The position numbers and the translations under genes were made by a program. From positions 269,527-333,526 of the forward strand of contig CAMAVS010000002.1 of assembly GCA_945861665.1 (NCBI GenBank): a stretch of 64,000 nucleotides of DNA, read 5' to 3'. Shown here piece by piece: positions 21,616 through 24,538 of the stretch. The notes beneath the pieces are model-generated. The model searched no databases. It saw only the letters and a list, made by a program, of their open reading frames with translations, and had not been told where the DNA came from. Positions within the stretch are counted from its first letter, which is position 1, and every line of letters starts with the position of its first letter. This stretch comes from Chitinophaga pinensis (GTDB lineage: Bacteria > Bacteroidota > Bacteroidia > UBA4408).

Positions 21616-22584
21616 ATGGCAAGAATTTTAACAGGCATACAAAGTACAGGAATACCTCATTTAGGAAACATTTTGGGCGCAATAAAGCCTGCTATTGAGC
21701 TTTCTAAAAAGGCTGAGAACCAATCTTTATTCTTTATTGCCGACCTGCATTCTTTAACTACAATACGGAATGCAGAGGAACTCAAAAGGAATACCTTTTC
21801 GGTAGCTGCTGCTTGGTTGGCTTTTGGCTTTGATATTGATAAAAATATTTTTTACAGACAATCGCACGTACCACAAGTATGCGAGCTATATTGGCACTTG
21901 TGCTGCTTTGCCCCTTTTCCAATGTTGGCAAATGCACATTCATTTAAAGATAAATCAGATCGTTTGGCGGATGTAAACGCAGGACTTTTTGCTTATCCCG
22001 TGCTGATGGCGGCCGACATTCTTTTGTACGATGCTAATTTTGTACCTGTAGGTAAAGATCAAGTTCAGCACCTGGAAATGACGCGTGATATTGCCTCCAA
22101 GTTCAATCATATTTATGGAGATACATTTGTATTGCCTGAAGGACTTACGGATGAAAAGGTAATGAGTGTGCCGGGGGTTGACGGACAAAAAATGAGTAAG
22201 TCCTACAACAATTTCATCAATATTTTTCTTCCTGAAAAAGAACTGAAAAAAGTAATCGGGACTATAGTAACGGATAGCAAAGCATTGGAAGAATCTAAAA
22301 ATCCGGATACTTGCAATGTATTTAATATATATAAATTAATTGCGGCTGAACAACAGGTGCAAGATATGCGCAGCAATTATATTAAAGGCGGCTATGGATA
22401 CGGGCACGCAAAAAACGCCTTGTATGAATTGATATTGGATAACTTTAAAAATGAGCGGGATTCATTTACCTATTATATGAACAATGTTGATGAGCTTGAG
22501 AAAAAGTTACAAGTGGGTGAAGCAAAGGCTGCCATTATTGCGAATGATGTATTGAAACGCGTTAGAGCTAAAATAGGGTATTAA
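21616..22584 (+). CDS. trpS: Tryptophanyl-tRNA synthetase
   Basis: A class Ic synthetase of 322 residues. The HIGH-equivalent is HLGN (15-18) in TGIQSTGIPHLGNILGAI. The KMSKS motif is intact at 192-196 (GQKMSKSYNNF). GKDQVQHLEMTRDIA is the conserved tryptophan/ATP-site segment. Length is normal for a bacterial enzyme. It is divergent from the TetR/RND operon and lies just upstream of the tRNA-Arg cassette. Confidence 0.97.
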   Translation: MARILTGIQSTGIPHLGNILGAIKPAIELSKKAENQSLFFIADLHSLTTIRNAEELKRNTFSVAAAWLAFGFDIDKNIFYRQSHVPQVCELYWHLCCFAPFPMLANAHSFKDKSDRLADVNAGLFAYPVLMAADILLYDANFVPVGKDQVQHLEMTRDIASKFNHIYGDTFVLPEGLTDEKVMSVPGVDGQKMSKSYNNFINIFLPEKELKKVIGTIVTDSKALEESKNPDTCNVFNIYKLIAAEQQVQDMRSNYIKGGYGYGHAKNALYELILDNFKNERDSFTYYMNNVDELEKKLQVGEAKAAIIANDVLKRVRAKIGY

Positions 22585-22611
22585 TTGTTTTAATGCTTAT
22601 TTTCGCAGCTT

Positions 22612-22626
22612 TATTGGGTCCGTAGT
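22612..22626 (+). repeat. Left direct repeat: tRNA-Arg 5' end fragment
   Basis: The 15 bases TATTGGGTCCGTAGT are identical to 22975-22989, which comprises 4 bases of leader and the first 11 bases of tRNA-Arg. The two copies are 363 bases apart and enclose the GIY-YIG gene. Confidence 0.8.
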
Positions 22627-22665
22627 CGCGAGGCGGGCTCGCGATGGCGAGAAACCCTCGCCATT
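22627..22665. repeat. Two adjacent GC-rich hairpins
   Basis: CGCGAG/CTCGCG and ATGGCGAG/CTCGCCAT form two stems in tandem, immediately after the tRNA fragment. They stand out by GC content from the surrounding AT-rich DNA. There is no T-run, so they are not simple terminators. Confidence 0.6.
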
Positions 22666-22690
22666 CAAATTGATGTTGTTTTGATTCGAT

Positions 22691-22951
22691 ATGCATTTTT
22701 ACGTTTATATTTTACAATCTGTTCACCATAATAGATTTTATATAGGTCAAACAAATGATATTTCTGTTAGGTTGGAAAACCATAATTCTGGATTGACCAA
22801 ATCGACAAAGCCATATTTGCCTTGGAATTTAGTTGGTGTAATTGAAAAAGAAACTCGTTCTGAAGCGATGATTCTGGAGAAAAAATTAAAAAATTTAAAT
22901 TCCCCTGATTTAAGAAAATTCATACTTAAATATTTTAGTAAAGAAACTTAG
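22691..22951 (+). CDS. GIY-YIG nuclease-domain protein (UPF0213/YhbQ-like size)
   Basis: An 86-residue protein that is almost entirely one GIY-YIG domain: YVYILQS (residues 4-10, the GIY-equivalent strand) then RFYIGQTNDISVRLENHNSG with the YIG strand, the catalytic-type Arg (RLENH) and a downstream Glu (RSEAMILEKKLK). Family members cleave or are predicted to cleave DNA; short stand-alone ones are common in Bacteroidota and their role is unclear. Here the gene sits between direct repeats of the neighbouring tRNA-Arg 5' end, which suggests a mobile cassette. Confidence 0.88.
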   Translation: MHFYVYILQSVHHNRFYIGQTNDISVRLENHNSGLTKSTKPYLPWNLVGVIEKETRSEAMILEKKLKNLNSPDLRKFILKYFSKET

Positions 22952-22958
22952 ATAATAA

Positions 22959-22966
22959 TAACTTTG
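22959..22966 (+). promoter_or_regulatory. -7 element of tRNA-Arg
   Basis: TAACTTTG, 12 bases before the tRNA 5' end. It lies inside the segment bounded by the direct repeats, so the tRNA is now expressed from a promoter in the inserted segment. Confidence 0.55.
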
Positions 22967-22974
22967 CATAAAAA

Positions 22975-22989
22975 TATTGGGTCCGTAGT
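22975..22989 (+). repeat. Right direct repeat, overlapping the tRNA-Arg 5' end
   Basis: Identical 15-base partner of 22612-22626. It regenerates the intact 5' end of the tRNA. Confidence 0.8.
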
Positions 22990-23052
22990 TCAACTGGATA
23001 GAATGACAGATTTCGGCTCTGTTGGTTGGGGGTTCGAATCCCTCCGGACTCA
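22979..23052 (+). tRNA. tRNA-Arg (anticodon TCG)
   Basis: The acceptor GGGTCCG pairs with CGGACTC (one G-T) plus discriminator A. D-arm GTTC/GAAT. Anticodon stem ACAGA/TCTGT with loop TTTCGGC gives TCG, reading CGN-type Arg codons. T-arm GGGGG-TTCGAAT-CCCTC. The 74-nt length is normal. CCA is not encoded. Confidence 0.93.
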
Positions 23053-23110
23053 CTGATGATTAAAATCACCAAACTTGTATAAAACGAAACAAAGTTCAAG
23101 TTTACTTGAA

Positions 23111-23174
23111 TCTTTGTGAAGTGAAATACAAAAAAATGCGTAGCATTTTGTGATTTTAATCCACTGCACGGACT
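23111..23174 (+). repeat. Direct repeat unit A downstream of tRNA-Arg
   Basis: Runs from TCTTTGTGAAGT through AAAAAATGCGTAGCATTT and TGATTTTAATCC to CACTGCACGGACTA. It matches unit B at 23313-23374 with few differences, at an offset of about 200 bases. The region 23053-23413 has no gene. It holds these repeats, several small hairpins (e.g. AAATGC-GTA-GCATTT) and tRNA-like fragments. Confidence 0.75.
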
Positions 23175-23312
23175 AGGAAGGATCAGCGAAGCTAATCCTT
23201 CTTAATTTATTTGAAATTTTTGAAATGATGAGTAACAAGATGCAAAGCATCTAAGCTTTTGATCCAATCGCGGAAAAGGAGGGATCAACGGAGTTAATCC
23301 CTTTTATTTCAA

Positions 23313-23374
23313 TCTTTGTGAAGTATTAAAAAAAATGCGTAGCATTTGGTGATTTTAATCCACTGCACGGACTA
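23313..23374 (+). repeat. Direct repeat unit B downstream of tRNA-Arg
   Basis: Partner of unit A. Within it TTTGGTGATTTTAATC (23345-23360) is the exact reverse complement of GATTAAAATCACCAAA at 23058-23073 just after the tRNA, so the block is bounded by an inverted repeat. Confidence 0.75.
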
Positions 23375-23389
23375 AGTGAGATCAACGAT

Positions 23390-23416
23390 TAATCCCTTCG
23401 GACTCACAAATGATTA
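23390..23416 (+). repeat. Decayed tRNA-Arg 3' end copy
   Basis: AATCCCTTCGGACTCAC, a two-base difference, then ATGATTAAAA matches the T-arm/acceptor end of tRNA-Arg and its flank at 23038-23063 with one difference inside the tRNA part. It resembles the residual attachment site left when an element integrates at a tRNA 3' end. Confidence 0.65.
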
Positions 23417-24538
23417 AAACTTATAAAATCCTGATAGCATTGGAACAGGAAATGATATTGACCTGCCAGATTCCGGAATAATAGTAACTCCCGCCAAAGA
23501 TACTTGCACTGCCGATCGATCTGAACTTTGGAAACGCATTCCAGGCATAATCATTATTGCAGCAGACATTAATTTTTTCTTAGTATTAATAGTTGTATAT
23601 TCAATAACAGCAGGAACGTAAGGGCTCAATTGAACCCATACATTATTGGCGACATAACCAACTGCTTCTATGGCTGGCGAAATTTCTTTTTCCGATGTCT
23701 TAGTTGAAGTTGTTTCCTGAGCAAAATAGCCAAACATCGAATCGAAAATCAAACTGGCTTTAGCACCAACTTTGAATATCCCAGCTACTGAAACGATAGG
23801 TCCTTGCGTTAGGGCTGCCAGTCCTTGATGACTATGAGAAACGTAACCATAATTATTAGAAGTTGAAAGATCAGTATAAGTTCCCTCCTCATAGATTTCG
23901 ATCATTCTTCCGGTTTTTAAATAAGTATAACCACCCGCAAAAGTGATGTTGTTTTGTCGGCTACCATAAGTAATATTTGCAAAGTGCAAGCCTAAAAAAC
24001 CTCTAAAACCAAATAGATATCCTGATGAGCCCATTAATGTGCCCACTGAATAGTTTAGTTTTTCATTTTTAGTTTTGAACGAGTATTTTGCTGCCAGCAT
24101 TAAAGGGCTACAAATCCAGGTAGACATAAAGCCTAAAGAAAAATTATCTGTAAGGGCAAAATGCACCTCCGGACCATACACACTAATTTTTGTATAATTT
24201 TCTCCTTTCTTTATTGACAGGGCATTGGTTGTGAAACAATATCGAGTTGTAAATGGACCTGCTACCACGTATTTCCCTTCAACAATTTTCGACTTATCCT
24301 GAATTTTAACCATACTTTTTATATCCGATTTAGGGATATAAATTTTACCCAGTGTTTCAGTTTCTATTAGCACTTCACGACCATCATCCTTTAGTATTTT
24401 TCCAATATATTCTGTGTTGTCGTTTTTTGTAATTACATATAGTTGTGTACTAGACGAGTCTTTGACATATTCTTGAGCAATTGCCAAATTAGAAATAGAC
24501 AAAAATAAAACAGAAGCAAAAAGTAAAAGGGATTTCAT
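23414..24538 (-). CDS. Predicted outer-membrane beta-barrel protein of unknown function
   Basis: A 374-residue protein with a signal peptide (LLLFASVLFLSISNLAIAQ). Residues ~30-80 (LYVITKNDNTEYIGKILKDD then VLIETETLGKIYIPKSDIKS) form a small SH3-like beta unit often seen at the start of Bacteroidota surface proteins. From ~95 onward alternating hydrophobic strands and glycine/aromatic pairs suggest a barrel, ending in an aromatic (SGFYKF), as expected for BAM substrates. No named family recognised. Monocistronic with its own promoter. Confidence 0.7.
   Translation of the reverse strand: MKSLLLFASVLFLSISNLAIAQEYVKDSSSTQLYVITKNDNTEYIGKILKDDGREVLIETETLGKIYIPKSDIKSMVKIQDKSKIVEGKYVVAGPFTTRYCFTTNALSIKKGENYTKISVYGPEVHFALTDNFSLGFMSTWICSPLMLAAKYSFKTKNEKLNYSVGTLMGSSGYLFGFRGFLGLHFANITYGSRQNNITFAGGYTYLKTGRMIEIYEEGTYTDLSTSNNYGYVSHSHQGLAALTQGPIVSVAGIFKVGAKASLIFDSMFGYFAQETTSTKTSEKEISPAIEAVGYVANNVWVQLSPYVPAVIEYTTINTKKKLMSAAIMIMPGMRFQSSDRSAVQVSLAGVTIIPESGRSISFPVPMLSGFYKF

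Follow-up and report, generated by a model that had tools for sequence, protein, structure and literature searches.

Organization of the tRNA-Arg locus

The window, that is, the whole 64-kb stretch of DNA analysed here, contains an intact tRNA-Arg(TCG) gene that is preceded by a 363-bp unit, in which a GIY-YIG nuclease gene is the sole gene and no integrase gene is present, and followed by repeats that lack a nuclease gene. The features of the locus are as follows:

22598..22606, plus strand: TATTTTCGC, a TAnnTTTG-like -7 element ahead of both the displaced fragment and the nuclease gene, presumed to be the original tRNA promoter
22612..22626, plus strand: displaced tRNA-Arg 5' piece, with 4 nt of leader and tRNA positions 1-11, an exact match to 22975-22989
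22626..22644, plus strand: hairpin 1, TCGCGAG-GCGGG-CTCGCGA, GC-rich, after tRNA position 11, read from the sequence
22645..22663, plus strand: hairpin 2, TGGCGAG-AAACC-CTCGCCA, GC-rich, adjoining hairpin 1, read from the sequence
22664..22690, plus strand: probable decayed rest of the displaced tRNA 5' half, alignable with a related locus (L060) that keeps CTCAACCGGGAGAGTGTC there
22691..22951, plus strand: gene of an 86-amino-acid GIY-YIG nuclease (Pfam PF01541, E = 1.7e-15)
22959..22967, plus strand: TAACTTTGC, a -7 element of the Bacteroidota type, candidate promoter supplied to the tRNA by the cassette
22975..22989, plus strand: second copy of the 15-nt repeat, the rebuilt tRNA 5' end, with 4 nt of leader and the first 11 nt of tRNA-Arg(TCG)
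22979..23053, plus strand: intact tRNA-Arg(TCG) (ARAGORN; Rfam tRNA, 63.1 bits)
23130..23388, plus strand: GIY-less repeat units 23130-23189 and 23329-23388 (90% identical), 3' of tRNA-Arg
23181-23197 and 23283-23299, plus strand: hairpin motif GATCAACGNAGTTAATC, within the GIY-less region
23391..23407, plus strand: displaced tRNA-Arg 3' end AATCCCTTCGGACTCAC (16/17 identical), with the hairpin-like GATCAACGATTAATCC just before it

The window contains two copies of the 15-nt direct repeat TATTGGGTCCGTAGT, starting at 22612 and 22975, and no others; when the 461-nt region was shuffled 1000 times (first-order), a repeat of at least 15 nt never arose. The first-pass annotation had described both copies, the second as the start of tRNA-Arg, and between them a 363-base unit holding two hairpins, a GIY-YIG gene, and a -7 element, all of which are present; it overlooked the probable decayed remainder of the 5' piece past the hairpins, as well as the displaced tRNA 3' end and the nuclease-free repeats on the other side of the gene. 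The segment 22612-22670 folds with z = -2.7, and its minimum-energy structure retains hairpin 2, with the first segment paired otherwise. TAnnTTTG is the established -7 consensus of Bacteroidota; simple promoter and terminator scans returned nothing exceeding chance. No intron match was obtained with Rfam in 22400-23600, which argues against reading the cassette as a group I intron.

The closest homologue of the cassette lies at a tRNA-Arg(CCG) gene (L061), where a tRNA 5' fragment, two hairpins, a GIY-YIG gene, a TAnnTTTG element, and the tRNA follow one another in the same architecture. There, a TAnnTTTG element precedes the displaced piece and also the rebuilt tRNA, the one before the displaced piece, TACCTTTGC, being a clearer match than its counterpart in the window. 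Both in L061 and in L060, hairpin 1 is kept at the equivalent place with altered stem letters. Comparison with these two loci suggests that the displaced 5' piece of the window probably continues, in a decayed form, beyond the hairpins; taken by itself, the stretch 22664-22690 is not significant as a tRNA remnant (shuffle p = 0.44), and a displaced piece reaching as far as the anticodon is backed through L060 and L061 rather than demonstrated in the window.

Downstream of the window's tRNA-Arg, the motif GATCAACGNAGTTAATC is a T-arm-like hairpin and, allowing up to two mismatches, has four copies in the 2.49-Mb genome, all of them 3' of tRNA-Arg genes and on the tRNA strand, namely of tRNA-Arg(TCG) and tRNA-Arg(ACG) only (L005, 1507-1523 and 1577-1593). 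Among 295 genomes of the class, 17 of 20 exact matches are 3' of a tRNA on the same strand, and in other Bacteroidia the motif follows Ser, Pro, and Cys tRNAs on their 3' side, within GIY-less arrays (L241, with units of ~98 bp). Judged by these features, the GIY-less units look like non-autonomous relatives of the elements described below.

The nuclease and its lineages

The 86-amino-acid protein corresponds to the catalytic domain alone and, in contrast to I-TevI, has no separate domain for DNA binding. Residues Y6, Y17, G19, R27, H31, and E63 are invariant in an alignment of 19 relatives, so that the Tyr-Tyr-Arg-His-Glu core of the GIY-YIG superfamily (PF01541) is present as Y6, Y17, R27, H31, and E63, and the AlphaFold model (pLDDT 93) confidently adopts the GIY-YIG fold. 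By both sequence and fold, the nearest solved structures are UPF0213 BH0048 (1zg2) and Slx1, with I-TevI as a weak match, and the homing endonucleases of PHROG give only short, weak matches to the single domain. Moreover, no relative was found in phage (tblastn), plasmid, or viral collections, and a phage, plasmid, or viral origin was rejected on that account. Ratios of dN/dS, finite for 16 close pairs, range from 0.05 to 0.29 and indicate purifying selection, and stop codons are present in some of the copies retrieved in the class search.

In a protein tree built from 84 sequences sharing less than 65% identity, many forks of which are poorly supported, the tRNA isotype changes 42 times, compared with 62.5 in shuffles, and 0 of 300 shuffles gave a value as low. 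Nearest neighbours have the same isotype in 34 of 84 cases (8% expected), and the isotype is common to cross-phylum pairs from Parcubacteria and Ignavibacteriota (Ser) and from Fidelibacterota and Bacteroidota (Asn). These isotype clusters are those of a nuclease that would inherit its target specificity across unrelated hosts.

Extent of the family and association with tRNA genes

The first-pass annotation had proposed looking for similar cassettes at other tRNA genes of the same genome. At the DNA level, the cassette is single-copy; the only other small GIY-YIG gene of the genome, a distant relative (L003), does lie at a tRNA gene, on the 3' side, in the order tRNA-Asn, nuclease gene, hairpin, and copy of the tRNA-Asn 3' end. 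With one cassette and one distant gene, a dispersed multi-copy family inside this genome was discarded. Since the second gene sits 3' of tRNA-Asn, insertion at the 5' end of a tRNA, which the first-pass annotation had considered unusual, constitutes one of two regular modes.

In a first search of the phylum, nearly all of the relatives adjoined tRNAs, of differing isotypes. An unselected scan of a genome collection, performed with a 4-row alignment (the 19-row alignment being too diverse), gave 80 loci, at 66 of which a tRNA lies within 1 kb of the nuclease gene, always on the same strand, whereas the chance expectation is at most 5% even when estimated generously (p ~ 1e-71). Most of the 14 loci without a nearby tRNA lie at the end of a contig or contain tRNA pieces. 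When 145 loci were pooled, a tRNA lay no more than 1 kb from the nuclease gene at 125 of them, and the tRNA-linked copies are all on the tRNA strand (166/166). In the class Bacteroidia, 157 of the 395 genomes searched (40%) have a match at E <= 1e-18, with up to 13 copies in some of them, tRNA adjacency being checked at sampled loci among them, and relatives were also present in Patescibacteria, Ignavibacteriota, Chlorobiota, Balneolota, and Fidelibacterota. The elements reside beside almost every tRNA isotype across Bacteroidota and some other phyla. In two loci from Patescibacteria (L113, 3001-3255; L123, 2525-2779), the nuclease gene lies between imperfect inverted repeats of ~20-25 nt with no tRNA pieces, possibly a second mode of insertion.

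Displaced tRNA pieces and hairpins

At 85% of the 124 testable loci, the side of the nuclease gene that faces away from the tRNA holds a piece of that same tRNA; the control with another isotype's tRNA gives 4%, and shuffled regions give 0%. In the 5'-type, the nuclease gene is upstream of the tRNA, and the piece begins at tRNA position 1 in 38 of 44 cases and often stops at positions 29-37, near the anticodon. In the 3'-type, the nuclease gene is downstream, and the displaced piece extends to the tRNA 3' end from start points scattered over tRNA positions 3-72. A single insertion point common to all elements finds no support in these scattered starts and in the 5'-type ends, often near the anticodon.

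The 72 interruptions found between matched tRNA pieces are mostly palindromic hairpins situated in the D loop, the anticodon arm, and the T loop; for instance, TCCCGACTTGTCGGGA stands in for the entire anticodon arm in L040, and CCTGCCTGCCGGCAGGCAGG sits in the D loop in L087. Hairpins vary in sequence among loci, and it is the hairpin character that recurs. In a Mucilaginibacter (L133, upstream of 3001), the hairpin of the displaced piece is expanded to a long CCTG repeat, and in L134 it is a short palindrome. The whole unit measures ~310-450 bp, and arrays of nuclease-free units also exist.

tRNA genes are classical attachment sites of integrases, and rebuilt tRNA ends together with displaced copies are typical of integrase integrations, so that the GIY-YIG gene could be a cargo, and the units remnants or passengers of elements integrated by an unrelated recombinase. 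However, units of this size are too small for an integrase, no gene but that of the nuclease is constant, and the nuclease is under purifying selection, tracks the tRNA isotype while both tRNA ends are used, and is without relatives in the phage, plasmid, and viral collections, which makes such a cargo role highly improbable.

Occupied and empty sites

Same-family relatives are not syntenic at the trpS-tRNA-Arg locus of the window, where a syntenic empty allele was sought; in one of them (G007), a tRNA-Arg(TCG) gene situated at another locus lacks the fragment. Occupied and empty alleles, as required of a homing gene, were found for both the 5'-type and the 3'-type in family relatives at loci other than that of the window. 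In the genus of G036, the tRNA-Arg(TCG) gene follows a gene whose product was named a YqeY/GatB-domain protein from its translation alone, and 5 of the 29 inspected loci are occupied, whereas 24 are nuclease-free. These sites in another genus, of the same type as that of the window, lend support to the earlier proposal that the unit inserted between repeats derived from the tRNA and regenerated the 5' end of that tRNA. At one of the 24 nuclease-free loci (L259), a solo tRNA-Arg 5' fragment upstream of 1922 is folded back on its own inverted copy. In L258, 24 of the 75 positions of the rebuilt tRNA deviate from the genus consensus, compared with 2-11 in the others, and the displaced piece retains the native GTTCAACTGGATAGAA; the intact tRNA is foreign and arrived with the element. 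For the 3'-type, in the genus of G064, the tRNA-Pro site is occupied in L216 and empty in L201, L203, L204, L205, and L198, with flanks 79-85% identical on both sides and a spacing of 404-424 nt versus 43-123 nt. In a Flavobacteriaceae-like pair (L189 and L190), the tRNA-Pro segment is inverted between collinear flanks, one locus having a cassette and the other lacking it.

These alleles bear on three further explanations. A repeat of 15 nt is short, and the window's repeat might be due to chance or, as the first-pass annotation had allowed, belong to a conserved tRNA leader; the shuffles, the 85% versus 4% in the displaced-piece control, the empty alleles elsewhere, and the matching architecture of L060 and L061 rule this out for practical purposes. 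More substantial is the idea that a nuclease already resident beside tRNAs gave rise to pieces and arrays by unequal recombination or by segmental duplication that the nuclease stimulates, in the manner of SegB amplification, with no gain from other genomes. Near-identical units do occur in tandem (five of 350 bp in L196; four of 404 bp in L172), the copies of the tRNA 3' part and of the terminator in L216 are nearly identical and thus compatible with local duplication too, and, in phage T6, SegB is reported to produce tandem copies of a tRNA segment (PMC13096335). Nevertheless, clean orthologous empty sites, the foreign tRNA of L258, and isotype-specific nuclease lineages common to Parcubacteria and Ignavibacteriota, Fidelibacterota and Bacteroidota, and others stand against it, and duplication alone leaves the hairpins unexplained; we regard it as unlikely. 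Finally, the elements could be tRNA-linked regulatory or defensive modules, acting on tRNAs or incoming DNA through the nuclease or through hairpin-bearing pseudo-tRNA RNAs, for example by guarding attachment sites at tRNAs, and kept beside the tRNA for expression. Purifying selection, hairpins that retain an arm-like shape where the D, anticodon, or T arm would be, and the constant co-orientation with the tRNA would suit such a function, whereas the patchy presence at a given tRNA within one genus, the stop codons in some copies, the arrays of nuclease-free units, and the lack of a constant partner gene make it very unlikely.

Proposed mechanism

Comparison of sequences establishes the association with tRNA genes, the orientation, the same-tRNA pieces, the hairpins, and the occupied and empty sites of both types, together with the arrays, one foreign tRNA, the isotype-specific lineages across phyla, and the purifying selection. 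The cassette is probably a minimal tRNA-targeted mobile element of homing type, whose carried tRNA part rebuilds the tRNA; the first-pass annotation had already likened it to a minimal homing element, and this is the best-supported reading, in which cleavage and mobility are what we infer. The one-domain GIY-YIG nuclease would cut the tRNA gene, and repair from the tRNA homology arms would insert the element, which would bring its own copy of the severed tRNA part so that an intact tRNA is rebuilt alongside. Insertion and tRNA reconstruction would be one event, because the nuclease gene in the donor lies between two tRNA-derived arms. The original tRNA end of the host would be left behind, usually broken by hairpins, which may prevent the displaced piece from being cut, from recombining, or from being read as a tRNA; inactivation of the displaced piece is the most economical reading of the hairpins. 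The 5'-type seen here consists, in order, of the presumed original promoter, the displaced 5' piece with its hairpins, the nuclease gene, a candidate new promoter, and the intact tRNA-Arg, an arrangement in which the old tRNA promoter would be placed for expression of the nuclease gene. The 3'-type consists of the intact tRNA, often a terminator, the nuclease gene, and the hairpin-broken tRNA 3' part.

Several observations count against homing. Classical homing escapes self-cutting by splitting the target site, and in the occupied alleles the displaced copy is hairpin-broken while the rebuilt tRNA is complete, so that a nuclease recognising the tRNA body alone would cut its own host. The missing separate DNA-binding domain and the scattered starts of the 3'-type point in the same direction. 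A more specific and rather doubtful variant is that the nuclease, in the manner of SLX1 and UPF0213, is structure-specific and recognises hairpins, both single-stranded tRNA arms and its own palindromes; isotype-tuned, hairpin-directed jumping would then leave hairpin-for-arm scars, and the elements would represent a mobile class distinct from introns, integrases, and REP/RAYT.

Relation to known systems

UPF0213 proteins, which with SLX1 provide the nearest solved structures, likewise consist of a single GIY-YIG domain; neither UPF0213 nor SLX1 is known to be mobile or tRNA-linked. Integrase islands share with them the restoration of the gene by a tRNA part that the element brings along, and the tRNA end displaced to the far side, but the present elements have no integrase, measure ~0.3-0.45 kb, use both tRNA ends, and carry hairpins in the displaced piece.

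The fungal mitochondrial mORFs, described for atp6 in Allomyces and for atp6, atp9, cox2, and nad3 in Glomus, consist of a free-standing endonuclease gene (LAGLIDADG; GIY-YIG in atp9) and a foreign replacement gene end, and their insertion displaces the native gene end, with empty alleles in relatives (PMC3630166). The elements described here resemble them in carrying a replacement end and displacing the native one, and in the foreign tRNA with a native piece of L258. Unlike the mORFs, which occupy mitochondrial protein genes and are mostly LAGLIDADG, they occupy bacterial chromosomal tRNA genes, either end of which can be replaced, and their displaced piece is broken by hairpins, a feature that the accessible part of the report does not mention for displaced mORF ends (PMC3630166).

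SegB of the T4 and T6 phages is a GIY-YIG homing endonuclease closely linked to tRNAs of many isotypes, with tandem amplification, and is implicated in double-strand breaks in tRNA-containing DNA (PMC13096335). A GIY-YIG nuclease beside tRNAs of many isotypes and tandem arrays are shared with that system. SegB, however, is phage-encoded, the paper covering phage and archaeal-virus proteins, and displaced or hairpin-broken tRNA pieces like those of the present elements are not mentioned in its accessible text.

If this tRNA-targeted homing reading is correct, single-domain nuclease elements of 300-450 bases have spread into tRNA genes of nearly all isotypes, by a route into essential RNA genes that dispenses with self-splicing and by which a host tRNA can be replaced by a foreign one (L258). 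It would also account for broken tRNA pieces beside real tRNAs and for small proteins annotated as 'GIY-YIG nuclease family protein'. Novelty is provisional because the literature search was limited to open-access publications, in which no description of these bacterial elements was found.

Group I introns with homing endonucleases also occupy bacterial tRNA genes and survive there by self-splicing (review PMC3984707). Both are selfish nuclease elements in essential tRNA genes, but no intron RNA is present here and the tRNA would be rebuilt from the carried piece. Intron matches were encountered at two loci of the family: a group I intron match lies beside tRNA 3'-like sequence and a nuclease gene in L138 (2662-2878), and a group II intron match lies upstream of a nuclease gene with tRNA-Pro pieces on either side in L098 (565-1140).
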